From assembly GCA_027489375.1 (NCBI GenBank), contig JAIXZW010000012.1, positions 62,001-126,000 on the forward strand: a DNA stretch of 64,000 nt, read 5' to 3'. Positions within the stretch are counted from its first letter, which is position 1, and each line of letters starts with the position of its first letter. Under the pieces are notes generated by a model. The model had not been told where the DNA came from and searched no databases. It worked only from the letters and a program-made list of their open reading frames with translations. This DNA is from Paracoccaceae bacterium (lineage in GTDB: Bacteria > Pseudomonadota > Alphaproteobacteria > Rhodobacterales > Rhodobacteraceae). This document shows, in pieces, positions 12,023 through 45,903 of this stretch. A program made the translations under genes and the position numbers.

Positions 12023-12607
12023 ATGACCGGAAAGAAGTATCACCACGGCGACCTCCGCGCCGCCCTCCTTGCCGCGGCCGAAGCGGAACTTGCCGAACGC
12101 GGGGTCGAAGGCTTCTCGCTGCGCTCCGTCGCCAAGCGGGCAGGGGTCAGCCACGCCGCCCCCGCGCATCACTTCACCGATGCGGGCGGCTTGCTCACGG
12201 CGCTGGCCGCCGAAGGCTTCCGCCGTTTCCTCGACACCCAAGGCGCACGCGAAGCGCAGGCTGCACCCGACCCGCGTGCGCAGCTTCTCGCGGCGGGTCT
12301 GGGCTACGTCGATTTCGCCTTGGCCCGCCCCGCGCTCTTCCGGCTGATGTTCGGATCGGATCGGGCAGAATTCGCCGACCCCGAACTGTCGGCGGCGTCC
12401 GAGGCGGCTTACTTCCACCTCGTCGGACAGGTCCGTGCCCTTGGCGGCAACGACACCGACGCCGCCGCCGTCTGGTCGGTCGCGCACGGCCTCGCCGACC
12501 TCATGGCCGCGGGTCGCCTGAAACCGCTTCAAGCGCTGCCACCCGAAGCGCGGGATGCGGCAGTGGCCGGAATCCTGCTGCGGAGTTTTCCCCCGAAAAA
12601 CGGGTGA
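12023..12607 (+). CDS. TetR/AcrR family transcriptional regulator
   Basis: 194 aa. The N-terminal HTH is clear: HHGDLRAALLAAAEAELAERG, then FSLRSVAKRAGVSHAAPAHHF with the recognition helix. The C-terminal domain (LGYVDFALARPALFRLMF ... AAYFHLV) fits the WHG-type ligand-binding domain of one TetR branch. The ATG at 12023 starts MTGKKYHHGDL; earlier in-frame starts would run through the operators. It is divergent from the ABA4-like/membrane-protein operon and separated from it by two near-identical palindromes, so it most likely represses that operon and itself. The inducer is unknown. Confidence 0.9.
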   Translation: MTGKKYHHGDLRAALLAAAEAELAERGVEGFSLRSVAKRAGVSHAAPAHHFTDAGGLLTALAAEGFRRFLDTQGAREAQAAPDPRAQLLAAGLGYVDFALARPALFRLMFGSDRAEFADPELSAASEAAYFHLVGQVRALGGNDTDAAAVWSVAHGLADLMAAGRLKPLQALPPEARDAAVAGILLRSFPPKNG

Positions 12608-36297: not shown

Positions 36298-37605
36298 TCA
36301 GATGTCGAGCGTGTTCTCATGCTCCCAGCGCGAGAAATGCGACACGAAGCTGTCCCATTCCTTGTGCTTGAGCTTGAGGAAGGCGCTCGAGAACTCCTCG
36401 CCCATCATCGCCTTCAGCGTCTTGTCCTTGTCATATTCCCGCAGCGCATCAAGCAGGTTGAGCGGCAGCTTCGGCGCGCCCTTCACCGTATGGCCCTGCT
36501 GGTACATGTCGATGTCGTAGCGGCGGCCCGGATCGGCCTTGGTGCGCACGCCATCGAGACCCGCCGCGATGATCACGGCCTGCATCAGGTAAGGGTTCGC
36601 CGCCCCGTCGGGCAGGCGCAGCTCGAACCGGCCCGGACCGGGGACACGGACCATATGGGTGCGGTTGTTGCCCGTCCACGTCACCGTGTTCGGCGCCCAT
36701 GTCGCCCCCGACGAGGTGCGCGGCGCGTTGATGCGCTTGTAGCTGTTCACCGTCGGGTTGCAGATCGCGGCCAGCGCCGAGGCGTGCTTCATGATCCCGC
36801 CAAGGAAGTTGCGCCCCTGATCCGACAGCGACAGCTCCTTCGTCGGGTCCGAGAAGGCGTTCTTCTTGCCATCCAGCGACCAGACCGAGATATGCGCATG
36901 GCACCCCGACCCCGTCAGCCCCTTGAAGGGCTTGGGCATGAAGGTGGCGCGGAAGCCGTGCTTTTCGGCCACCGATTTGACCATGAACTTGAAGAAGCTG
37001 TGCTTGTCGGCGGTTTGCAGCGCGTCGTCGTATTTCCAGTTCATCTCGAACTGGCCGATCGCGTCCTCGTGGTCGTTCTGATAGGCTTCCCAGCCCATCT
37101 CGAGCATGTAATCGCAGATTTCGCTGATCACGTCATAGCGGCGCATGATCGCCTGCTGGTCGTAGCAGGGCTTTTCCGCCGTGTCGTAGATGTCCGAACA
37201 GGCATTGCCCTCGGCGTTCAGGATGAAGAATTCCGGCTCCACCCCCGTCTTGACGCGCAGCCCTTCCTTCGCGGCCTCGTCCACCAGCCGTTCCAGCACG
37301 TTGCGCGGCGCTTGCGCCAAGAGCTTGCCGTCCATCACGCAGCGGGCCGCGACCCATGCCACATCCTTCTTCCACGGCAACTGGATGACCGAGGTCGGGT
37401 CCGGCACGGCCATCATGTCGGGATGGGCGGGCGTCAGGTCGAGCCAGGTGGCAAAGCCCGCAAAACCCGCGCCATCCTCGGCCATGTCGTTGATCGCCTG
37501 CGAAGGCACCAGCTTGGCCCGCTGGCCACCGAACAGGTCGGTGTAGGAAATCATGAAGTATTTCACGCCCCGTTCGGCGGCCCAAGCGGCAAGATCGATT
37601 GCCAT
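36298..37605 (-). CDS. gmaS: Gamma-glutamylmethylamide synthetase (glutamine-synthetase family)
   Basis: 435 aa glutamine-synthetase-fold enzyme. It lacks the extra domains of GlnA I and fits the GlnT/GMAS branch that ligates methylamine to glutamate with ATP. Metal and glutamate-binding motifs are present: GVEPEFFILN, GQFEMNWKYDDAL, GSGCHAHISVWS and NRTHMVRVPGPGRFELR. The N-terminus MAIDLAAWAAERGVKYFMIS and the ending SRWEHENTLDI also fit that branch. The decisive context is mgsC, mgsB and mgsA immediately upstream on the same strand and mgdABCD nearby, the complete N-methylglutamate pathway. Without that context it could be read as a type III glutamine synthetase. Confidence 0.88.
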   Translation of the reverse strand: MAIDLAAWAAERGVKYFMISYTDLFGGQRAKLVPSQAINDMAEDGAGFAGFATWLDLTPAHPDMMAVPDPTSVIQLPWKKDVAWVAARCVMDGKLLAQAPRNVLERLVDEAAKEGLRVKTGVEPEFFILNAEGNACSDIYDTAEKPCYDQQAIMRRYDVISEICDYMLEMGWEAYQNDHEDAIGQFEMNWKYDDALQTADKHSFFKFMVKSVAEKHGFRATFMPKPFKGLTGSGCHAHISVWSLDGKKNAFSDPTKELSLSDQGRNFLGGIMKHASALAAICNPTVNSYKRINAPRTSSGATWAPNTVTWTGNNRTHMVRVPGPGRFELRLPDGAANPYLMQAVIIAAGLDGVRTKADPGRRYDIDMYQQGHTVKGAPKLPLNLLDALREYDKDKTLKAMMGEEFSSAFLKLKHKEWDSFVSHFSRWEHENTLDI

Positions 37606-37666
37606 AGTGTAACTCCCTGTCCTGTCTTTTGCCCGGCTTTCTGCCGGTAATTTGTAACGGTGCGGA

Positions 37667-38992
37667 TCAGAAGCCGTTGCGGCCCGGGATCCAGTTTGTG
37701 CCAGCCAGCGGAACCCCCGCCATTGCCGCGCCCTCGATCGTCAGCGCGCAAAGGTCTTCGGGTTCGAGGTTGTGCAGGTGGTTCTTGCCGCAAGCCCGCG
37801 CAATGGTCTGCGCCTCCAGCGTCATCACCTTGAGGAAGTTCTTCAGCCGCCGACCGCCAAGGATCGGATCGAAGCGCTTGTAAAGCTCGGGGTCCTGCGT
37901 GGTGATGCCCGCGGGGTCGCGGCCTTCGTGCCAGTCGTCATAGGCGCCCGCCGTGGTGCCAAGCTTGTTGTATTCGGCCTCGAGTGCCGGATCGTTGTCG
38001 CCCAGCGCCACCAGCGCCGCCGTGCCGATGGCAACCGCATCCGCGCCCAAGGCCATCGCCTTGGCCACATCCGCGCCCGACCGGATCCCGCCCGACACGA
38101 TCAGCTGCACCTTGCGATGCATGCCGAGGTCTTGCAGCGCCTTAACCGCCAGCGGGATACAGGCCAGGATCGGCATGCCGACGTTTTCGATGAACACGTC
38201 CTGCGTCGCCGCCGTGCCGCCCTGCATCCCGTCCAGAACCACGACGTCGGCACCTGCCTTCACGGCCAGCGCGGTGTCGTAATAGGGACGCGCGCCGCCG
38301 ACCTTGACGTAGATCGGCTTTTCCCAATCCGTGATCTCGCGGATTTCAAGGATCTTGATTTCCAGATCATCGGGCCCGGTCCAGTCGGGGTGACGGCAGG
38401 CCGAGCGCTGGTCGATCCCCTTGGGCAGGTTGCGCATCATGGCGACGCGGTCGGAGATCTTCTGCCCCAGCAGCATCCCGCCGCCGCCCGGCTTTGCACC
38501 CTGACCAACCACCACTTCGATGGCATCGGCGCGGCGCAGGTCGTCGGGGTTCATGCCGTAACGGCTGGGCAGGTATTGGTAGACCAGCGTCTTGGAATGC
38601 CCGCGCTCTTCTTCCGTCATCCCCCCGTCACCCGTGGTGGTCGAGGTTCCGGCGGCCGATGCGCCACGGCCAAGCGCCTCTTTCGCGGGGCCGGACAGAG
38701 CGCCGAAGGACATGCCCGCGATGGTCACGGGAATATCCAGATGGATCGGCTTCTTCGCATAGCGCGTGCCAAGCCAGACGTCCGTCGCGCATTTCTCGCG
38801 GTAGCCTTCCAGCGGGTAACGGCTGATCGACGCGCCAAGGAACAGCAGGTCGTCGAAATGCGGCAGCTTGCGCTTCGACCCGCCGCCGCGGATGTCGTAG
38901 ATGCCCGTGGCGGCAGCGCGCCGGATTTCGGCGTTGATGTCGTTGGAAAAGGTCCACGACTGTTTCGGCGGCGTATGGGGAAAATCGGTCAT
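37667..38992 (-). CDS. mgsC: N-methylglutamate synthase subunit C (FMN-binding glutamate-synthase family)
   Basis: 441 aa, homologous to the FMN-binding core of the large glutamate synthase subunit (also called GlxD). Flavin-site segments are visible: MSFGALSGPAKEALGRGASAAG, GGGGMLLGQKISDRVA, VVLDGMQGGTAATQDVFIENVG and [25 protein letters not shown]. In the synthase it catalyses exchange of methylamine/ammonia onto glutamate. It sits 13 bases after mgsB and 61 before gmaS, so mgsA-mgsB-mgsC-gmaS is one transcription unit. Confidence 0.9.
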   Translation of the reverse strand: MTDFPHTPPKQSWTFSNDINAEIRRAAATGIYDIRGGGSKRKLPHFDDLLFLGASISRYPLEGYREKCATDVWLGTRYAKKPIHLDIPVTIAGMSFGALSGPAKEALGRGASAAGTSTTTGDGGMTEEERGHSKTLVYQYLPSRYGMNPDDLRRADAIEVVVGQGAKPGGGGMLLGQKISDRVAMMRNLPKGIDQRSACRHPDWTGPDDLEIKILEIREITDWEKPIYVKVGGARPYYDTALAVKAGADVVVLDGMQGGTAATQDVFIENVGMPILACIPLAVKALQDLGMHRKVQLIVSGGIRSGADVAKAMALGADAVAIGTAALVALGDNDPALEAEYNKLGTTAGAYDDWHEGRDPAGITTQDPELYKRFDPILGGRRLKNFLKVMTLEAQTIARACGKNHLHNLEPEDLCALTIEGAAMAGVPLAGTNWIPGRNGF

Positions 38993-39005
38993 GTGAAGGT
39001 GGACC

Positions 39006-39695
39006 TCAGTAAGACGACGCGTTGTCGATATTGAAGGTGTAAAGCTTGCGGGCCGAACCGTAGCGCTTGAACTCTTCCGGCTTGGCCAGATGGTCCGCCT
39101 CGCCCCGCTTCAGCAGGTCGGCAAGGATGGCGATATGCTCGGGGCGCATCTCTTTCTCGATGCAGTCGGCCCCCAGCGATTTCACCGAACCGCGCACGAA
39201 CAGCCGCGCTTCGTAAAGGGAATCACCCAGCGCCTCGCCCGCATCGCCCAGCACGACCATGTTGCCCGACTGCGCCATGAAGGCCGACATGTGCCCGATG
39301 TTGCCATGCACGACGATGTCGATGCCTTTCATCGAAATCCCGCAGCGGCTCGAGGCATTGCCCTTGATCACCAGAAGCCCGCCGCGCCCCGTGGCACCTG
39401 CATACTGGCTTGCGTCACCGTCGATGATGACCGTGCCGGACATCATGTTTTCCGCAACCCCCGGACCGGCCGAGCCTTTGACGCGGACGGTCGCCTGCTT
39501 GTTCATGCCGGCGCAGTAGTAGCCCGTGGACCCGCGCACCGTCACATCGACGGGGGCATCCAGACCCACGGCGATGGCATGCGCGCCCTTCGGGTTCACG
39601 ATCTCCCACGCGGTTTCGTTGGTCTGGCCCTTCAGCGCGTGAAGCTTTTCGTTCAATTGGCGCAGGCCCTGCGCCTCGAGGTCGAATGTCTGCAT
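39006..39695 (-). CDS. mgsB: N-methylglutamate synthase subunit B (GXGXG-domain protein)
   Basis: 229 aa made almost only of the right-handed beta-helix GXGXG domain that forms the C-terminal part of glutamate synthase GltB (also called GlxC). The helix repeats are easy to see: VTVRGSTGYYCAGMN, VRVKGSAGPGVAENM, VIIDGDASQYAGATGRGG, VIKGNASSRCGISMKG, VVHGNIGHMSAFMAQSG. It is a structural subunit between the amidotransferase-like MgsA and FMN-binding MgsC. Only 3 bases separate it from mgsA. Confidence 0.9.
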   Translation of the reverse strand: MQTFDLEAQGLRQLNEKLHALKGQTNETAWEIVNPKGAHAIAVGLDAPVDVTVRGSTGYYCAGMNKQATVRVKGSAGPGVAENMMSGTVIIDGDASQYAGATGRGGLLVIKGNASSRCGISMKGIDIVVHGNIGHMSAFMAQSGNMVVLGDAGEALGDSLYEARLFVRGSVKSLGADCIEKEMRPEHIAILADLLKRGEADHLAKPEEFKRYGSARKLYTFNIDNASSY

Positions 39696-39698
39696 GAC

Positions 39699-40595
39699 TC
39701 AGCGTTCCCAGAAGTAAACAGTGGCGGGCTCCGGCTCCCAGACGCGGGCAGCATCGATGCCCGGCAGGTTGACCATCGCGCGGTATTCGGACCCGAAGGC
39801 GACATATTGGTCGGTTTCGGCCATCACGGCGGGCTTGCAGGCGATCGGGTCGCGCACCACGCCGAAGCCGTTCTTGGTGCCCACGACAAAGGTGAAGAAC
39901 CCGTCGAGGTCGGTGAGCGTGGCTTCCATCGCCTCGCCCAGTTTCGCGCCCTCCTGCAGCTTGTGGCTGATGAAGGCGGCGGCGACCTCGGTGTCGTTCT
40001 CTGTCTCGAAGCTCATGCCCGCCTGACGCAGTACGCGCCGCACCGAATTGTGGTTCGACAGCGACCCGTTATGCACAAGGCACTGGTCCGATCCGGTCGA
40101 GAAGGGGTGCGCCCCCATCGTGGTGACAGCCGATTCCGTCGCCATGCGGGTGTGGCCGATGCCGTGCGTGCCGGACATGCGCGCCACTTCGAAGCGCGCG
40201 GCCACATCCTTGGGCAAGCCCACTTCCTTATAGATTTCAATGCCTTCTCCGGCGCTCATCACCTTGGCGGCGGGGCGCAGGGTTTTCAGCGCATGGCGCG
40301 CGGCCTCAAGCCGGTCCTCCGGCACCTCAAGCACCATATGGGTGTCCTTGACCGTGCCCGTCACCTTGCCGGCGACCGCCTTGCCAAGGTCGTCGGCCAG
40401 CGAGGCAAAGTCGGCGTCGGGGTTGGCCGATTGCACCGTCAGCTTCGCCTTGCCCTTTTCGGGGCGGCCATAGATCGCGATTCCCGCCGAATCGGGGCCG
40501 CGGTCGGTCATGGTGATCAGCATGTCAGTAAGCATCTCGCCGAGCTTCGGCTCGAGCTTTGGGTCCTTCAGGAACAGACCGACGATTCCGCACAT
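39699..40595 (-). CDS. mgsA: N-methylglutamate synthase subunit A (class II glutamine amidotransferase-like)
   Basis: 298 aa Ntn-hydrolase domain, also called GlxB. The N-terminus MCGIVGLFLKD exposes Cys2 as the nucleophile after Met removal; TDRGPDSAGIAIYG, GHTRMATESAVTTMGAHPF and VHNGSLSNHNSVR complete the GATase II site. In this pathway the substrate is probably gamma-glutamylmethylamide rather than glutamine. It is the first gene of mgsABC-gmaS; a 260-base divergent spacer separates it from the small-membrane-protein operon. That spacer contains GTTTTACCG and a GTTTC-N9-GAAAC inverted repeat, candidate control sites. Confidence 0.9.
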   Translation of the reverse strand: MCGIVGLFLKDPKLEPKLGEMLTDMLITMTDRGPDSAGIAIYGRPEKGKAKLTVQSANPDADFASLADDLGKAVAGKVTGTVKDTHMVLEVPEDRLEAARHALKTLRPAAKVMSAGEGIEIYKEVGLPKDVAARFEVARMSGTHGIGHTRMATESAVTTMGAHPFSTGSDQCLVHNGSLSNHNSVRRVLRQAGMSFETENDTEVAAAFISHKLQEGAKLGEAMEATLTDLDGFFTFVVGTKNGFGVVRDPIACKPAVMAETDQYVAFGSEYRAMVNLPGIDAARVWEPEPATVYFWER

Positions 40596-40855
40596 GGCGT
40601 CGACTCCTTTGTTCGTCTCTCGTCGTCACGCTAGCAAACCTGTTTTACCGTTTCAACTGACAAGAAACATTTTTTACTAGGGGGTAAGGCGGCCCCGTTT
40701 TGTGGCGAAGTTTTCAAACGGCAAGATTTTTAGGCAAAGGTTTTGACAGACGGTTGGGCCTGTGTTTCCCTCGGGCAAAATAAGTTCACGCATAGCGAAC
40801 TCCGGCGCGCATCGGCCCGACGCGCAGGGGATAAAAAGGGCCAAGGGAGGAAACT

Positions 40856-41146
40856 GTGAACGACCTGAATGCAAGGATCACATCCATGCACCGGCGCGAT
40901 GTCACCGTCGCCTGGGGCTTCATCATCGGTTTGTGGGTTGCCATGTTCTTCGTCGCCATCGCCACATGGGACCTCGCGCCCAACGGCACGGCGCGTATCC
41001 TGCTCCTGATCGGAGGAGTGATCGTCCTGACATTCAACACCGCCGCGATCATGGCGATGTTGGCGCATTACCGCGAAGACCGCGACTTCATGTACGGGCT
41101 GGACATCAAGTTCCTTGATGAAGCCCGCGCGGCGAAAAGGGGCTGA
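40856..41146 (+). CDS. Small two-helix membrane protein, first gene of a permease operon
   Basis: 96 aa from GTG at 40856 behind GGGAGG. Two membrane segments (GFIIGLWVAMFFVAIATW, about 21-38, and ILLLIGGVIVLTFNTAAIMAM, about 48-68) with basic flanks predict both ends in the cytoplasm (tail: DEARAAKRG). The second helix carries a buried Asn-Thr pair. No family is recognised. It leads an operon of four genes ending in an APC permease, divergent from mgsABC-gmaS, so a role as transporter accessory subunit for amine uptake is the leading guess. Confidence 0.8.
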   Translation: MNDLNARITSMHRRDVTVAWGFIIGLWVAMFFVAIATWDLAPNGTARILLLIGGVIVLTFNTAAIMAMLAHYREDRDFMYGLDIKFLDEARAAKRG

Positions 41147-41149
41147 GAC

Positions 41150-41530
41150 ATGGCACGCTATACCCCACCCCCGCAAAGCAAGATCGGCCAGATGATCGAC
41201 GTGATCGTGCTGCTGATCCTGTCCATCGGCGCGCTTTACATCCCGCTCTGGCTCGGCCTTGCCGGATCGGCAAAGACGCCGCTCACCGCCGACAATCCGA
41301 CCTGGGAAAGCCTCGGCCAGAACCCGACGATGGTGGAGCGCTGGAACCAGCTCGGCTTTGCCGATCCGGCCTCGGCGCATGACATGATCACCGCCCGCTT
41401 CGACTATTCCTTCACCTGGGGCGCGATGGCGCTGATGGTCGTGGTCATCGCGGGCTACTTCGCCCTCATGCTGCGGCTTTCCGAAAAGGAATACCGCGAA
41501 GTGATCGACGAAAAGTTCGAGCGGCGCTGA
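41150..41530 (+). CDS. Small two-helix membrane protein, second gene of the permease operon
   Basis: 126 aa, starting 3 bases after the previous stop, with AAAAGGGG as ribosome binding site. Helix 1 is MIDVIVLLILSIGALYIPLWLGLAG (about 15-39), helix 2 GAMALMVVVIAGYFALMLRL (about 91-110). Between them lies a roughly 50-residue probably periplasmic loop (DNPTWESLGQNPTMVERWNQLGF is its core, quoted only in part). The charged tail EKEYREVIDEKFERR would be cytoplasmic. Unrecognised. The sizeable exposed loop is unusual for so small a protein and could contact a substrate or a binding partner. Confidence 0.8.
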   Translation: MARYTPPPQSKIGQMIDVIVLLILSIGALYIPLWLGLAGSAKTPLTADNPTWESLGQNPTMVERWNQLGFADPASAHDMITARFDYSFTWGAMALMVVVIAGYFALMLRLSEKEYREVIDEKFERR

Positions 41531-41548
41531 AAGCGAAGGATCAGGGAC

Positions 41549-41710
41549 ATGTGGACATTCCTCGAATACGCAGCCTGGGCCGCTTCGGCCGCCTTCGCGC
41601 TGCATATGATCTATGACTGGTACAAGACCGACACGACCTATTCCGAAGACGTCCTCACCTCATCCCGCGAAGGCGAGATCGAGGCGATGACCGAACAGCA
41701 CAAGATGTAA
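41549..41710 (+). CDS. 53-aa single-helix membrane protein, third gene of the permease operon
   Basis: Short gene with a good ribosome binding site (GAAGGATCAGGG before ATG at 41549). Residues 3-23 (TFLEYAAWAASAAFALHMIY) form one membrane helix; the rest (DWYKTDTTYSEDVLTSS and an acidic, polar tail) is soluble. It ends 10 bases before the permease start. No family is recognised, but the tight spacing in a four-gene run supports it being real. Such one-helix proteins often stabilise or regulate a partner transporter. Confidence 0.7.
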   Translation: MWTFLEYAAWAASAAFALHMIYDWYKTDTTYSEDVLTSSREGEIEAMTEQHKM

Positions 41711-41720
41711 GGGGGCGAAA

Positions 41721-43160
41721 ATGGCAGATTTCGACATCACTTCGCCCACAATGGACGGCATTGCCTCTCATGGCACCAAGGTGGGCCTTGCCCGCGTTCT
41801 CGGCCCCGCGCACGTCTGGGCGCTTGGCGTGGGGATCGTGCTCGTGGGCGAATACATGGGCTGGAACTTCGCCGTGGGCAAAGGCGGGGCTTACGCCGCG
41901 CTGATCGCCTGCTGGTTCGCGGGCATCCTCTATTCCTGCGTCGCCATGATCGACTCCGAGGTCACATCGACCGTCGCAGCGGCAGGCGGGCAATACACCC
42001 AGGCCAAACACATCGTCGGCCCGCTCATGGCCTTCAACGTCGGCCTCTACCTCGTCTTCGCCTACACGATGCTCGAGGCGGGCAACGCCATCACCCTCGG
42101 CTACCTCATCTCCGAGGCGGCACGGATGACGGCGGGGGTGACAGACCTCGACCAGCGGCCCTTCATCATCCTGTCGATCATGTTCCTTGCATGGTTGAAC
42201 TTCCGCGGGGTGCTGGCGACGCTGACCTTCAACCTCGTCATCACGGCCTTCGCCTTCTGCGCCATCCTCGTGCTCTTCTTCGCCTCGGCCCCGTGGAGCG
42301 CGGACAGCCCGCTCGCCCATGCCGAGCTGATGTCGGGGCAGGCGGCGCTTCCCTATGGCTGGATCGGCGTTCTGGCGGCGATGCACTTCGGGCTGTGGTT
42401 CTACCTCGGCATCGAGGGCACCACCCAAGCGGCGGAAGAGGTGCGCTCGCCCGCGCGTTCGCTCCCCTTCGGCACGCTGGCGGGCATCATGACGCTGCTC
42501 ATCGCGGCGACGCTGACGTGGTATATCTGCGTGGGCTTCCTGCCTTGGGAATATCTCGGTGACGGCGTGAACGGGGCGGTGGCACCGCTCTTCAGCGCGG
42601 CGCAGATGACGGGGTCCAATTTCCTCATCATCGTGCTGGGGGTCGGGACGCTCTTTGCCACGCTGGCCTCGGCCAACGGCTGCATCAACGATGCGTCGCG
42701 GGCGTGGTTCTCGATGGGGCGCGACCATTACCTGCCGCAATGGTTCGGGGCCGTGCATCCGAAATACCGCACGCCCTACCGGTCGATCATCTTCCTCGTG
42801 CCGATCGCGCTGATCTTCGCGCTTGGCGCACCGCTGGATCAGGTGATCACCTTCTCGATCCTGTCGGGGTTGCTCGGCTATACCTTCATGCCGATCAACA
42901 TCATCCTGTTCCGCCGCAAATGGCCGCTCGACACGATCAAGCGCGGCTATGTCCACCCGTTCCACCCGATCCCGGCCATCGTGCTGCTGGCGCTCTGCTC
43001 GCTCACCTATTTTGCCGTGTTCCTTGGCTACGGGACGCAGCTCATCGCGATGGTCAGCTTCTACATCGTGGTGTCGCTGTGGTTCCACTTCTGGCGCTAC
43101 CGCTTCGTGAAGCGGGCGGACCAGTTCACCATGCCTTGGCCGAAACCCAAGGGCTACTGA
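41721..43160 (+). CDS. APC-superfamily amino-acid/amine permease
   Basis: 479 aa, about 12 membrane segments. The first helix region ALGVGIVLVGEYMGWNFAVGKGG and the long EGTTQAAEEVRSPARSLPFG loop match the ethanolamine-permease branch of the APC family (2.A.3.5), including the GIEGTTQAAEE-like motif. Later segments LGVGTLFATLASANGCINDASRAWFSMGRDHYLP fit the same family. Set between mgs and mgd gene sets and behind three small membrane proteins, it probably imports methylamine or a related small amine, or N-methylated glutamate compounds. Specificity is inferred from context only. Confidence 0.85.
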   Translation: MADFDITSPTMDGIASHGTKVGLARVLGPAHVWALGVGIVLVGEYMGWNFAVGKGGAYAALIACWFAGILYSCVAMIDSEVTSTVAAAGGQYTQAKHIVGPLMAFNVGLYLVFAYTMLEAGNAITLGYLISEAARMTAGVTDLDQRPFIILSIMFLAWLNFRGVLATLTFNLVITAFAFCAILVLFFASAPWSADSPLAHAELMSGQAALPYGWIGVLAAMHFGLWFYLGIEGTTQAAEEVRSPARSLPFGTLAGIMTLLIAATLTWYICVGFLPWEYLGDGVNGAVAPLFSAAQMTGSNFLIIVLGVGTLFATLASANGCINDASRAWFSMGRDHYLPQWFGAVHPKYRTPYRSIIFLVPIALIFALGAPLDQVITFSILSGLLGYTFMPINIILFRRKWPLDTIKRGYVHPFHPIPAIVLLALCSLTYFAVFLGYGTQLIAMVSFYIVVSLWFHFWRYRFVKRADQFTMPWPKPKGY

Positions 43161-43223: not shown

Positions 43224-43904
43224 ATGTTCCTTGCCGAAAGCCTCCTCCTTTCCGCCCTTGCCGCGCTGCTCGTCGCGGTCGTCGTGCTGTCAAAGCGGCG
43301 CGAGGGCAGGGTGATGGTCCGCCGTGCTGCCCTGCTCGACCCTTGCCGCCCGCTCTTTGCCGATACAGTGCTGCGCCCCGATCCGATGGGCTTTCCGCGC
43401 ATGGCAGGCACAGCCCACGGTCTGCGCTGGGATGTGCAGGTGGTGCCTGACGCGCTGGCGGTGCGCAAACTGCCCGCGCTCTGGCTGCTGGTCAGCCTGC
43501 CGGACCCGATGCCGGTCCCCGCCACGCTGCACCTGATGCTGCGCCCCACGGGGGCCGAGGGTTTCACCCGCTTCCGCAGCCTGCCGCTGCAACTCGACCT
43601 GCCCGAGGGTTTCCCGACCGATGCCGCCCTGCGCTGCGACCATCCCGCCGCTCTGGCATATGCCGACCTGATGCGCCCGCTCTTGCCGCTGTGGGGCGAC
43701 AGGCTCAAGGAAATCATCCTCTCCCCCAAAGGCCTGCGCGTCACGCTTTTGATGGAGGAAGCGGACCGCAAGAATTACCTGATCCTGCGCCAGACCGATC
43801 TTGGCCAATCCCCCGCCGATCCCGCCGCCCTGTCCCGCGCGCTTCTGGCGCTGTCGGACCTGCGCGCACGCCTTGCAGACCCGAAGGAAAGAACCGCCGC
43901 ATGA
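43224..43904 (+). CDS. Membrane-anchored protein of unknown function
   Basis: 226 aa. One N-terminal helix (LLLSALAALLVAVVVLSK, about 7-24) is followed by a soluble domain with alternating hydrophobic strands (LWLLVSLPDPMPVPATLHLML, RFRSLPLQLDLPEGF). Unrecognised. It overlaps the next gene by 4 bases (ATGA), so they form a two-gene unit on the plus strand, 63 bases after the permease. Whether it belongs to the amine-uptake operon is unclear. Confidence 0.7.
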   Translation: MFLAESLLLSALAALLVAVVVLSKRREGRVMVRRAALLDPCRPLFADTVLRPDPMGFPRMAGTAHGLRWDVQVVPDALAVRKLPALWLLVSLPDPMPVPATLHLMLRPTGAEGFTRFRSLPLQLDLPEGFPTDAALRCDHPAALAYADLMRPLLPLWGDRLKEIILSPKGLRVTLLMEEADRKNYLILRQTDLGQSPADPAALSRALLALSDLRARLADPKERTAA

Positions 43905-44173
43905 AAGCCCCGATGCACCCCTATGCCGTGGCCGCCCTTGCCATCCTGCTTCCCGGCATGGGACAGGTCGCCAACGGCCAACCGAAACGCGGGCTGGTGT
44001 TCGTGTTCTTCATCCTGCTTCTGGGCGCGCTGACGGCAAAGACCGCATCGCCCGACGTGTCGATCATCGGCCGCTACGCGGGCGGCATCTTCATCTACGC
44101 GCTCTCGCTCTACGATGCCTACCGCCTCGCACGGCTGCGATTCGAGATCTGGCGCCGCGCCGCTCAGGCCTGA
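43901..44173 (+). CDS. Small TM2-like membrane protein
   Basis: 90 aa. Two hydrophobic segments (YAVAALAILLPGMGQVANGQ and LVFVFFILLLGALTA) around PGMGQVANGQPKRG, a motif resembling the 'PGxGQxYxGQ' turn of TM2-domain proteins, plus a third weaker helix (GGIFIYALSLYDAYRLA). Coupled to the 226-aa gene by an ATGA overlap and convergent (10-base overlap) with the XRE regulator. Function unknown. Confidence 0.7.
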   Translation: MKAPMHPYAVAALAILLPGMGQVANGQPKRGLVFVFFILLLGALTAKTASPDVSIIGRYAGGIFIYALSLYDAYRLARLRFEIWRRAAQA

Positions 44174-44820
44174 GGGTAGGAGATGATCGACAGATACCGC
44201 GCGGGTAGCTTGATCAGCACCTCCGGCCCGTGCTGCGCATCGGCGTCGAACAGCAGGCTGTCCCCCGGTTCGAGGTGAAAGAGCTTGTCACCATGCCGGT
44301 ACTGAACCTCGCCCTCCAGCATGAACAGAAGCTCGATCCCATCATGCTGGAAGGTGGGGAAAACGTCCGAATCCTTGGTCAGGGTGATGACATAGGGTTC
44401 CACCACCACCCCCGAATTGTTCGACCCGATATGGCCGAGCAGGTGATACTGGTGCCCCGCCCGCGTCCCGCGCCGTTCGATTTCAACATGTTGCCCCGCC
44501 TTCACATGCTGCACCTCGCGCCGCTCCTCGAAGCCGCGGAAGAAGCTGGTGATGGGGGTCGAGAAAGCGTGCGACAGGATTTGCAGCGTGGTGAGCGAGG
44601 GCGAGGTGATCCCGTTCTCGATCTTCGACAGCATCCCGATCGACAGCCCCGTGGCCGAAGCAAGGTCCGCAACCGTCATCCCCTGCTGGCGGCGAAAGGC
44701 GCGGACCGACCGGCCGATGGCCAGTTCCAGATTGCGTTCCGACAATTCCCGCACACGGTGCGGGTCTTGGTCGAAAGCCGGTTTCGAACGGGGCAGGGAG
44801 GTGTCGTCGAAATCTTCCAT
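44164..44820 (-). CDS. XRE-family regulator with C-terminal cupin domain
   Basis: 218 aa. The HTH_3 domain is clear (RAFRRQQGMTVADLASATGLSIGMLSKIENGITSPSLTTL is its core, quoted only in part), followed by a cupin barrel (FQHDGIELLFMLEGEVQYRHGD ... HLEPGDSLLFDADAQHGPEVL). This is a common architecture for regulators of amine and amino-acid metabolism. The ATG at 44820 (MEDFDD) was chosen; an upstream in-frame extension crosses the promoter. It is divergent from a GlxA-type activator, with three ACCA repeats at exact 12-bp steps between them, the likely operator. It may control mgs/mgd genes. Confidence 0.88.
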   Translation of the reverse strand: MEDFDDTSLPRSKPAFDQDPHRVRELSERNLELAIGRSVRAFRRQQGMTVADLASATGLSIGMLSKIENGITSPSLTTLQILSHAFSTPITSFFRGFEERREVQHVKAGQHVEIERRGTRAGHQYHLLGHIGSNNSGVVVEPYVITLTKDSDVFPTFQHDGIELLFMLEGEVQYRHGDKLFHLEPGDSLLFDADAQHGPEVLIKLPARYLSIISYPQA

Positions 44821-44840
44821 GGCGCATTTCTTCGTTGCTT

Positions 44841-44872
44841 TCACCAATAGGATTACCAATTATTTTACCACG
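44841..44872. promoter_or_regulatory. Three ACCA direct repeats at 12-bp spacing
   Basis: ACCA begins at 44843, 44855 and 44867, each preceded by pyrimidine or T-rich sequence (TTTCACCA, GATTACCA, TTTTACCA). The array lies in the 72-bp divergent spacer between the XRE-cupin and GlxA-type regulators. A related TTTTACC occurs in the mgsA spacer (about 40643-40649). Confidence 0.5.
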
Positions 44873-44892: not shown

Positions 44893-45903
44893 ATGGCCGA
44901 GTCGCAGTCTCCCGAGATGGTTTTGGGGTTCCTGCTCTTTCCGGGCTTCCCGATGGCCTGCCTCACCTCGGCCATCGAACCCCTGCGCGCCGCGAACGAG
45001 ATCACGGGCCGCCGCGTCTTCGCGTGGAAACTGATCGGCGAGGAGAAAGCCCCGATCCAGTCCAGCGCCGAAGTGCGCTTCGACCCCGACATGGCGCTGG
45101 CCGATGCTTCCGGCCTCGACTGCCTGTTCCTTCTGTCCATGCCGCAATCGCAATTCGCCAAACCCCGCGCCTCGATGGCGCAGATCCGCTGGATGGACCG
45201 CTGCGGCGTGACGCTCGGCGGCTTCTCCGGCGGGGTGTTTCCGCTGGTCAGGGCAGGGGTGATGACGGGACGCTCCTGTTCGGTCCACTGGTGCTACGAG
45301 GCCGCCTTCCGCTCCGAATTCCCGAACGTCGAGGCGAGCCAGGCCGTGATCCTGCGCGAACGCCGCCGCGCCACGGCTTCGGGGGCGGGGGCGGTCTTCG
45401 ACATGATGCTGCACCTGATCGAGGAAAAACTAGGCCGCGAAACCATGACCGAGGTCGCCTGCTGGTTCCAGCACCCCTTCGTGCGCTCGGACGACACGAA
45501 CCAGAAAGTGCCGGCGCAAAAGGTCGGCGGCACCAACGACATGCTCCCCGAACCCGTGCGGCAAGCGGTGCAGGTCTTTGCCGACCACATCGAAGACCCC
45601 GTCCGCATCGCCGATGTGGCCGATGCCGTGGGCATGTCGGAACGGCATCTGGAACGGGTGTTCAAACTGGCGACAGGCCAAAGCCCGCTGCAATACTACC
45701 GCCTGATGCGGCTGAAAAAGGCGCGTCAAAAGGTGCTCTATTCGACCCAGAGCATCACCCAGATCGCCCTGTCGGTCGGCTATGCCTCATCCACCCCCAT
45801 GACGCGGCACTATGCCGAAGCCTTCGGCGTCTACCCCGCGGACGAGCGGCGCAAACTGGTGGGGATGCGCGGCTTGGGCGGGGCGCTGCCGCCCTCGGAA
45901 TAA
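44893..45903 (+). CDS. glxA: GlxA family transcriptional regulator (DJ-1/PfpI-like domain plus AraC HTH)
   Basis: 336 aa. Residues 10-190 form the DJ-1/PfpI-like domain (VLGFLLFPGFPMACLTSAIEPLRAA is its start, quoted in part). The AraC double HTH occupies about 225-325: PVRIADVADAVGMSERHLERVF, then SITQIALSVGYASSTPMTRHY. In Sinorhizobium, glxA is linked to glxBCD, homologues of mgsABC here, so regulation of this cluster fits both family and position. It is divergent from the XRE-cupin gene. Start ATG 44893 is 10 bases after GAAGGGAT. Confidence 0.9.
   Translation: MAESQSPEMVLGFLLFPGFPMACLTSAIEPLRAANEITGRRVFAWKLIGEEKAPIQSSAEVRFDPDMALADASGLDCLFLLSMPQSQFAKPRASMAQIRWMDRCGVTLGGFSGGVFPLVRAGVMTGRSCSVHWCYEAAFRSEFPNVEASQAVILRERRRATASGAGAVFDMMLHLIEEKLGRETMTEVACWFQHPFVRSDDTNQKVPAQKVGGTNDMLPEPVRQAVQVFADHIEDPVRIADVADAVGMSERHLERVFKLATGQSPLQYYRLMRLKKARQKVLYSTQSITQIALSVGYASSTPMTRHYAEAFGVYPADERRKLVGMRGLGGALPPSE

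Follow-up and report, generated by a model that had tools for sequence, protein, structure and literature searches.

Methylated amines commonly serve as sources of nitrogen and carbon, the enzymes that degrade them are known, and Amt proteins pass methylammonium. Among SSS symporters such as ActP-YjcH, the gene for a LeuT-fold transporter is accompanied by one for a small two-helix protein (DUF485, DUF4212). Pairings are also described within the APC fold, one of them between GkApcT, a Geobacillus transporter, and MgtS, an E. coli protein. In animals, LAT transporters have an obligate single-helix partner, an SLC3 protein, and GkApcT was crystallised with the single-helix MgtS, which packs on helix 5 (PMC5803215). 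For the N-methylglutamate pathway, the accessible portion of the open-access literature yielded Amt-type genes in clusters and no characterised methylamine importer; in Methyloversatilis, urea/ammonium-transporter and amino-acid-permease homologues respond to methylamine (PMC5023235). Here, we describe a six-gene unit, an APC permease and five accompanying genes, in a 64,000-nucleotide stretch of DNA from a Paracoccaceae bacterium (contig JAIXZW010000012.1; hereafter the window), and propose, with a probability of roughly 0.57, that it serves methylammonium uptake (monomethylamine, perhaps dimethylamine) in N-methylglutamate-pathway bacteria, with its small proteins as membrane partners. We found no description of this unit in the accessible open-access full texts, and the available text on Paracoccus aminophilus pAMI6 names an mgsABC-gmaS operon and a trimethylamine N-oxide (TMAO) permease with no mention of the unit (PMC4543880).

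All six genes, as defined from the window's open reading frames and their relatives, lie on the plus strand. The first, S96 (40856–41146, 96 amino acids), has a GTG start preceded by GGGAGG, and is followed by S126 (41150–41530, 126 amino acids), S53 (41549–41710, 53 amino acids) and the APC permease (41721–43160, 479 amino acids; PF00324/PF13520) at gaps of 3, 18 and 10 bases. P226 (43224–43904, 226 amino acids) starts 63 bases 3’ of the permease, and the start of S90 (43901–44173), which encodes a 90-amino acid membrane protein, overlaps the P226 stop (ATGA). A preliminary description of the locus gave the same sizes and spacings for the first four genes and correctly placed mgsABC-gmaS (36298–40595) divergent from them, but its four-component arrangement overlooked P226 and S90 (43224–44173). 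It also took a single subunit to be the normal working form of APC permeases, a generalization to which LAT with SLC3 and GkApcT with MgtS are exceptions (PMC5803215).

At the genomic level, the existence of the unit is secure. An S96 profile run against 84,980 species genomes detected 369 stretches encoding relatives, and we examined the best 80 of them; these carry titles of Rhodobacterales or its members, except for five with class or phylum titles only. The complete set of six genes is present in the same order and on the same strand in 78 of these 80 loci, the remaining two being cut by contig ends, and sixteen further regions from the same family and class agree with the unit as far as their contigs extend. 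Relatives from seven further genera of the family are 54 to 86% identical, and this conservation rules out chance open reading frames. Median gaps across 92 to 96 loci are, in order, 2, 9, 4, 52 and −4 bases, with outliers such as −383 arising from a few starts or matches misplaced by the script; duplicate or identical locus pairs in the collection are L026/L114, L031/L115, L032/L056 and L067/L070. Where annotation exists, it reads "hypothetical protein" for the first three genes, "amino acid permease" for the fourth and "hypothetical protein" for the last two. S126 is also found in 22 plasmid records, and the five that we examined all agree with the unit (P. aminophilus pAMI6, where it lies at about 128.9–132.1 kb of the record, two from Aminobacter and two from Paraburkholderia), the Paraburkholderia plasmids extending it to the Betaproteobacteria.

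Homologues of the small proteins scattered away from the permease had been put forward as the observation that would speak against the proposed multi-component permease. We ran this search, and in the genomes and loci covered the small proteins occur only in front of the permease and nowhere apart from it. S126 and the permease match an identical set of eight among 198 genomes of the family, S96 and the permease an identical set of five among 289 genomes of the class (both sets include the genome of the window), and in the phylum sample S126 occurs in 11 of 299 genomes, all of one class and all with the permease behind it. Within the genomes and loci searched, the transporter has a partner encoded with it and restricted to it, as expected of a heteromeric APC transporter.

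The unit is closely tied to methylated-amine metabolism. In the window, the divergent minus-strand genes comprise mgsA (39699–40595), encoding the glutamine amidotransferase-like subunit of N-methylglutamate synthase, mgsB (39006–39695), a further gene of this enzyme, mgsC (37667–38992), encoding its flavin mononucleotide-binding, glutamate synthase-like subunit, and gmaS (36298–37605), of the type III glutamate-ammonia ligase family (TIGR03105); the mgs names are taken from PMC4543880. Among the best 80 loci, 63 contain mgs or gmaS, and five contain other methylated-amine genes only (tmm, tdm, dmm, TMAO permease, mgd). We followed up loci without mgs by searching the whole genomes of 13 of the 17 such loci together with four other genomes, and found mgsC in 16 of these 17 unit genomes, although the match in G268 is weak (51% identity). 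In five of the 17 (L080, L082, L097, L105 and G268) the contig ends at most 0.9 kb before S96, so that mgs may adjoin the unit unseen, and in G607 and G658 mgsC lies on the unit's contig, about 8 and 18 kb away. For loci in which mgs did not appear, methylamine dehydrogenase was considered as the usual partner and rejected, as PF06433 was detected in 2 of the 17 genomes versus 16 for mgsC. In the family sample, 58 of 198 genomes contain mgsC (E ≤ 1e-210), including seven of the eight unit genomes, the eighth being 79% complete. The co-occurrence counts indicate that the unit nearly implies the N-methylglutamate pathway, and that the pathway does not imply the unit. We also rejected the idea of a module confined to mgs loci, as the unit is found beside tmm/tdm/dmm, beside serine-cycle genes, or beside none of these.

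Where the unit is missing, its place can be taken by an Amt-type gene. Fifty-one mgs genomes of the family sample lack the unit; 46 were taken, 45 of them had mgsA and 43 had enough flanking sequence. In 15 of these 43 loci an Amt-type gene lies beside mgsA, divergent in nine and co-directional in six; 14 of the matches exceed 300 amino acids (that in L205 is only a 79-amino acid piece), and two were confirmed as PF00909, the rest being tblastn matches at 39–67% identity. By contrast, among 69 unit loci with mgsA and flanking sequence (66 distinct), none has Amt beside mgsA, and the divergent unit is there in 65 (62 distinct). All 15 Amt-type genes thus fall on the non-unit side (hypergeometric P of 9.7e-8 over 112 loci, a value that includes duplicates and assumes an independence that related genomes do not have). 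In G104, a genome of the window's genus with an mgsC 96% identical, an ammonium transporter family gene occupies the unit's place. Amt-family genes divergent from mgsA in non-unit loci, including one from the window's genus, are at 12166–13632 of L165 and 13249–14787 of L167, and for R. pomeroyi and Methylocella a published figure legend includes amtB in the dmm regions (PMC5520151). We read the Amt-type gene in the unit's slot elsewhere as one methylammonium importer replaced by another, and with the unit standing in for Amt the methylamine uptake step becomes testable. The methylamine link drawn in the preliminary description gains support both from this exchange and from the co-occurrence with mgsC.

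The permease itself belongs to the APC family, passing the gathering scores of PF00324 and PF13520 (107.1 and 102.5 bits versus 24.6 and 27). It had been assigned to the ethanolamine branch, and its best NCBIfam match is indeed the ethanolamine permease TIGR00908; however, at 177.2 bits this match is below half of the 381.75-bit cut-off, and we rejected the permease as an ethanolamine permease. TMAO permeases (NF053774) and Amt proteins are likewise encoded in methylated-amine loci, and the window permease is in neither family: NF053774 was unmatched at E ≤ 1, as was Amt (PF00909), with only AA_permease families of Pfam returned at this threshold. Across 100 loci, 174 of the 479 positions are invariant, including E44, E119 and E232. 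Its closest solved relatives by sequence are structures of GkApcT (5oqt, 6f34), in which T43-G44 of helix 1 bind the substrate carboxylate (PMC5803215). These residues align with V42-G43 of the permease, followed by E44, in a register that is approximate owing to an alignment gap there. An acidic residue by the carboxylate cradle would fit an amine without a carboxylate.

Taken together, the unit is likely a methylated-amine importer, judging from gene content and sequence. We infer its substrate and direction, as well as the physical subunit status of the partners and an assembly role of P226 and S90. Several observations weigh against uptake of methylammonium as its general role. No Amt lies beside mgsA in 28 of the 43 non-unit loci, so the slot need not contain a transporter; an Amt-type gene is present elsewhere in the locus in 5 of 99 unit loci, and in L036 (10222–11616) it follows shortly 3’ of S90 of a complete unit, showing that unit and Amt can coexist side by side. 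No methylated-amine gene is found in the surrounding stretch for 12 of the best 80 loci, mgsC was not found in the Paracoccus genome of L093, and 51 of the 58 mgs genomes in the family sample lack the unit. The sampling, moreover, is the best 80 of 369 relatives, nearly all of them Rhodobacterales.

Such observations bear on whether the unit instead moves another compound, be it dimethylamine, trimethylamine, N-methylglutamate, gamma-glutamylmethylamide or another amine, or exports ammonium from methylamine breakdown. We consider this unlikely. It would account for the 12 loci without methylated-amine genes and for the units that have tmm, tdm, dmm or a TMAO permease rather than mgs; in L095 (4774–7549), the unit is near a glutamine-synthetase-like gene and a class III aminotransferase in a locus without mgs, which hints at another gamma-glutamylated amine. 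However, the replacement of the T-G of GkApcT by V-G and an E44 invariant in 100 loci is ill-suited to amino acids, the Amt-type gene in the same slot elsewhere favors (methyl)ammonium, and mgsC was found in 16 of 17 genomes even where it is absent near the unit. TMAO is an unlikely substrate, since next to some units a TMAO permease is encoded separately: the second permease adjoining the unit in L026 scores 821.3 bits against the 690-bit cut-off of NF053774, those of other loci being identified by tblastn. On the Paraburkholderia plasmids (L172, 13193–16071; L174, 11181–14059), we noted a GcvT-like gene, DmmD-like by eye, 3’ of the unit, along with a second permease resembling the TMAO permease by eye; no mgs was recognised by eye in these stretches.

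Hydropathy predicts two membrane helices in S96 (18–36 and 48–66), followed by a conserved C-terminal tail, HYREDRDFMYGLDIKFLD, and two in S126 around a loop of about 50 residues (approximately 36–84) that we take as periplasmic, in line with the loop and the helix counts described previously for these two proteins. The helix claimed for S53 is less clear, as no segment rises above the hydropathy cut-off, and residues 3–22 resemble one helix by eye; S53 probably has an N-terminal membrane helix ahead of its conserved tail, TYSEDVLTSSREGE. Both conserved tails are charged. None of the three window proteins reaches the cut-off of any Pfam or NCBIfam family, in keeping with the earlier statement that they have no recognisable family, and Pfam matches of single members in the small-protein alignments were dismissed as noise (best E 0.001, scattered names). 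In one genus of Alphaproteobacteria, the S126 loop has about 33 additional residues, giving proteins of 159–160 rather than 126 amino acids (L034, 6586–7065; L035, 6034–6513; L036, 6615–7097).

These features set the unit apart from the described systems. ActP-YjcH belongs to a different transporter family, and S96 and S126 (13 and 15 members) had no Pfam match to DUF485 or DUF4212 at E ≤ 0.5. GkApcT-MgtS is similar in that a small one-helix protein binds a CAT-type APC transporter, the permease's closest solved relative, and differs in that MgtS is not encoded with its transporter, in having one protein versus five and in its amino acid substrate; the LAT-SLC3 pairing of animals involves a single glycoprotein partner, with no small-protein trio and no P226 (PMC5803215).

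We assessed partner contacts by co-variation, using mutual information with average-product correction and counting pairs above z 4 per 10,000. In a ten-protein set of the unit plus mgs and gmaS products (all ten present in 56 of 98 loci), the counts were 71.8 for S126-permease, 28.8 for S96-permease, 20.3 for S96-S126 and 11.1 for S53-permease. As a control, pairs among mgsA, mgsB and mgsC, which form a multi-subunit enzyme, gave 12.1 to 39.6, and S126 paired with mgsC, mgsA, gmaS and mgsB gave 0, 6.1, 1.0 and 20.2. In a six-protein set, for which 94 of 102 loci had all proteins within length limits (90 distinct, with sequence weights allowing for duplicates), S126-permease stood at 68.1 and all other inter-protein pairs at 0 to 16.7. 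The null consisted of 25 simulations that keep the tree, the rough number of changes and the column composition. With each simulation on its own scale, S126-permease reached a mean of 22.2 and a maximum of 32.5, and the nine other pairs tested fell inside the ranges simulated for them; when the simulations were scaled as the real data, the simulated S126-permease maximum was 8.1. The top pairs connect the S126 loop (residues 61–81) with outer loops of the permease, at 180.5 per 10,000 for loop-to-outer, 45.2 for loop-to-inner and 0 for tail-to-inner pairs, where topology classes were assigned from hydropathy and the APC fold, and pairs with the inner residue H336 misfit. These patterns are suggestive of a physical complex and make a contact between S126 and the permease likely; S96 and S53 may also contact the permease. 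The earlier proposal that the small proteins are permease subunits gains partial support, through the co-variation of the 126-amino acid protein.

Other aspects of the co-variation and of the structure predictions count against such partnerships. S96 does not rise above the null in the 25 simulations, S53-permease does so on one of two scalings only (16.7 versus a maximum of 14.3), and the ten best S126-permease pairs average 6.23 versus a simulated maximum of 6.22. Fifteen of the top 25 S126-permease pairs change together on a single branch leading to 49 of the 94 sequences, and nine of the 25 sit on the L081 branch, with both proteins reverting together; block recombination of neighboring genes could explain this co-change. 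The structure model of S126 has a predicted template modelling score of 0.39, and its fold search found no solved-structure match at E ≤ 10. As for L081 itself, both S126 and the permease have switched back to the other sequence type within their clade, as if exchanged as one block.

Of the remaining two proteins, P226 is distinguished by a predicted fold. It has a helix at 3–21 followed by a positively charged stretch, which by the positive-inside rule only would place its C-terminal domain in the cytoplasm, and this soluble domain is predicted to adopt a CCDC47/TtfA-like fold, known from partners of multipass membrane proteins. TtfA, the mycobacterial partner of MmpL3, has a membrane anchor and a cytoplasmic C-terminus; it binds this transporter, whose function depends on it. 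P226 resembles it in its N-terminal helix and predicted fold and differs in sequence, for which a profile of 68 P226 sequences matched no PDB chain, TtfA included, up to E 10; MmpL3 also comes from another transporter family with another substrate. CCDC47, of the PAT complex in the eukaryotic multipass translocon, likewise combines a membrane helix with a globular cytosolic domain of this fold. It has latch helices after that domain, whereas P226, the last helix of which is short, aligns only to residues 76–369 of 9i78 chain 4 and appears to end with the globular domain; P226 is also bacterial and, among 240 genomes, found in this operon only. At E ≤ 1e-13, four of these 240 genomes matched P226, all among the five unit genomes of the class sample. 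We rejected P226 as a general family, since the two further matches (E 0.002 and 0.008) are noise, one a stop-filled stretch and the other a 32-residue piece. The predicted fold of P226 may connect a chaperone of eukaryotic membrane proteins with transporter partners in bacteria. Co-variation of the permease with both P226 and S90 was at null level.

A physical complex of the permease and its partners is plausible from the sequence data. In such an arrangement, with all topologies predicted, the APC permease would move the amine, and S126 would span the membrane twice with its periplasmic loop against the outer permease loops. S96 and S53 may act as membrane partners presenting their conserved cytoplasmic tails, and P226, anchored by one helix, would place its CCDC47/TtfA-like domain in the cytoplasm, where it and S90 might contribute to assembling, holding or gating the complex.

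The furthest-reaching form of this proposal is a first obligate multi-part complex of the APC fold in bacteria, composed of a methylammonium permease, three small subunits and its own anchored assembly factor of CCDC47/TtfA fold (P226, with S90), and acting as a portable module interchangeable with Amt in methylamine loci. We regard it as tentative and short of an even chance. If true, a set of five dedicated partners for one APC permease would offer a handle on how LeuT-fold transporters acquire subunits, and through P226 a fold known from eukaryotic membrane-protein biogenesis would be linked to a bacterial factor specific to a transporter.

Alternatively, the permease may act alone, with the small proteins, P226 and S90 regulating or stabilising it according to nitrogen or methylamine status, as small single-helix proteins do for other transporters. 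GkApcT is instructive here, as it bound MgtS in crystals and its melting temperature is about equal without it (PMC5803215). The charged, conserved tails of S96 and S53 would suit regulation, and the co-variation of S96 at null level, with hardly any for S53, is in keeping with it. Yet all five partners are kept in 78 of the best 80 loci, the other two being truncated by contig ends, and also in groups further removed, where the context differs, which exceeds what is expected of dispensable tuning, and we judge a permease acting alone decidedly unlikely. That the six genes are neighbors merely through shared inheritance of a metabolic island, P226 and S90 or the small proteins serving other membrane functions, is highly improbable: the loci do come from related bacteria with common ancestry, and P226 and S90 do not co-vary with the permease above the null, but the unit remains intact as its context varies from mgs to tmm/dmm, serine-cycle genes, isolation and plasmids, and its tight pairs have median gaps of 2, 9, 4 and −4 bases.

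The unit and the mgs operon share a divergent promoter region between mgsA and S96 (40596–40855), and comparison of 64 related regions shows conserved words. CTGTCAA is present in 62 of the 64, a TTTC-N6-GAAA dyad in 50 and TTTC-N9-GAAA in 40, the window among them; shuffled sequence contained 1.5 or fewer of such words, and the real counts are inflated by common ancestry and by a small number of duplicate loci. This conservation suggests that pathway and uptake are under joint control. Two regulator genes follow the unit, one of the helix-turn-helix (HTH)-cupin type on the minus strand (44164–44859), which recurs beside mgs loci both with and without the unit, and one of the GlxA/AraC type on the plus strand (44893–45903; HTH_18, with a weak DJ-1/PfpI match). 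The TTGACA-like words and the TTTC-N-GAAA dyad of the mgsA-S96 region form a candidate site for the HTH-cupin or the GlxA-type regulator.

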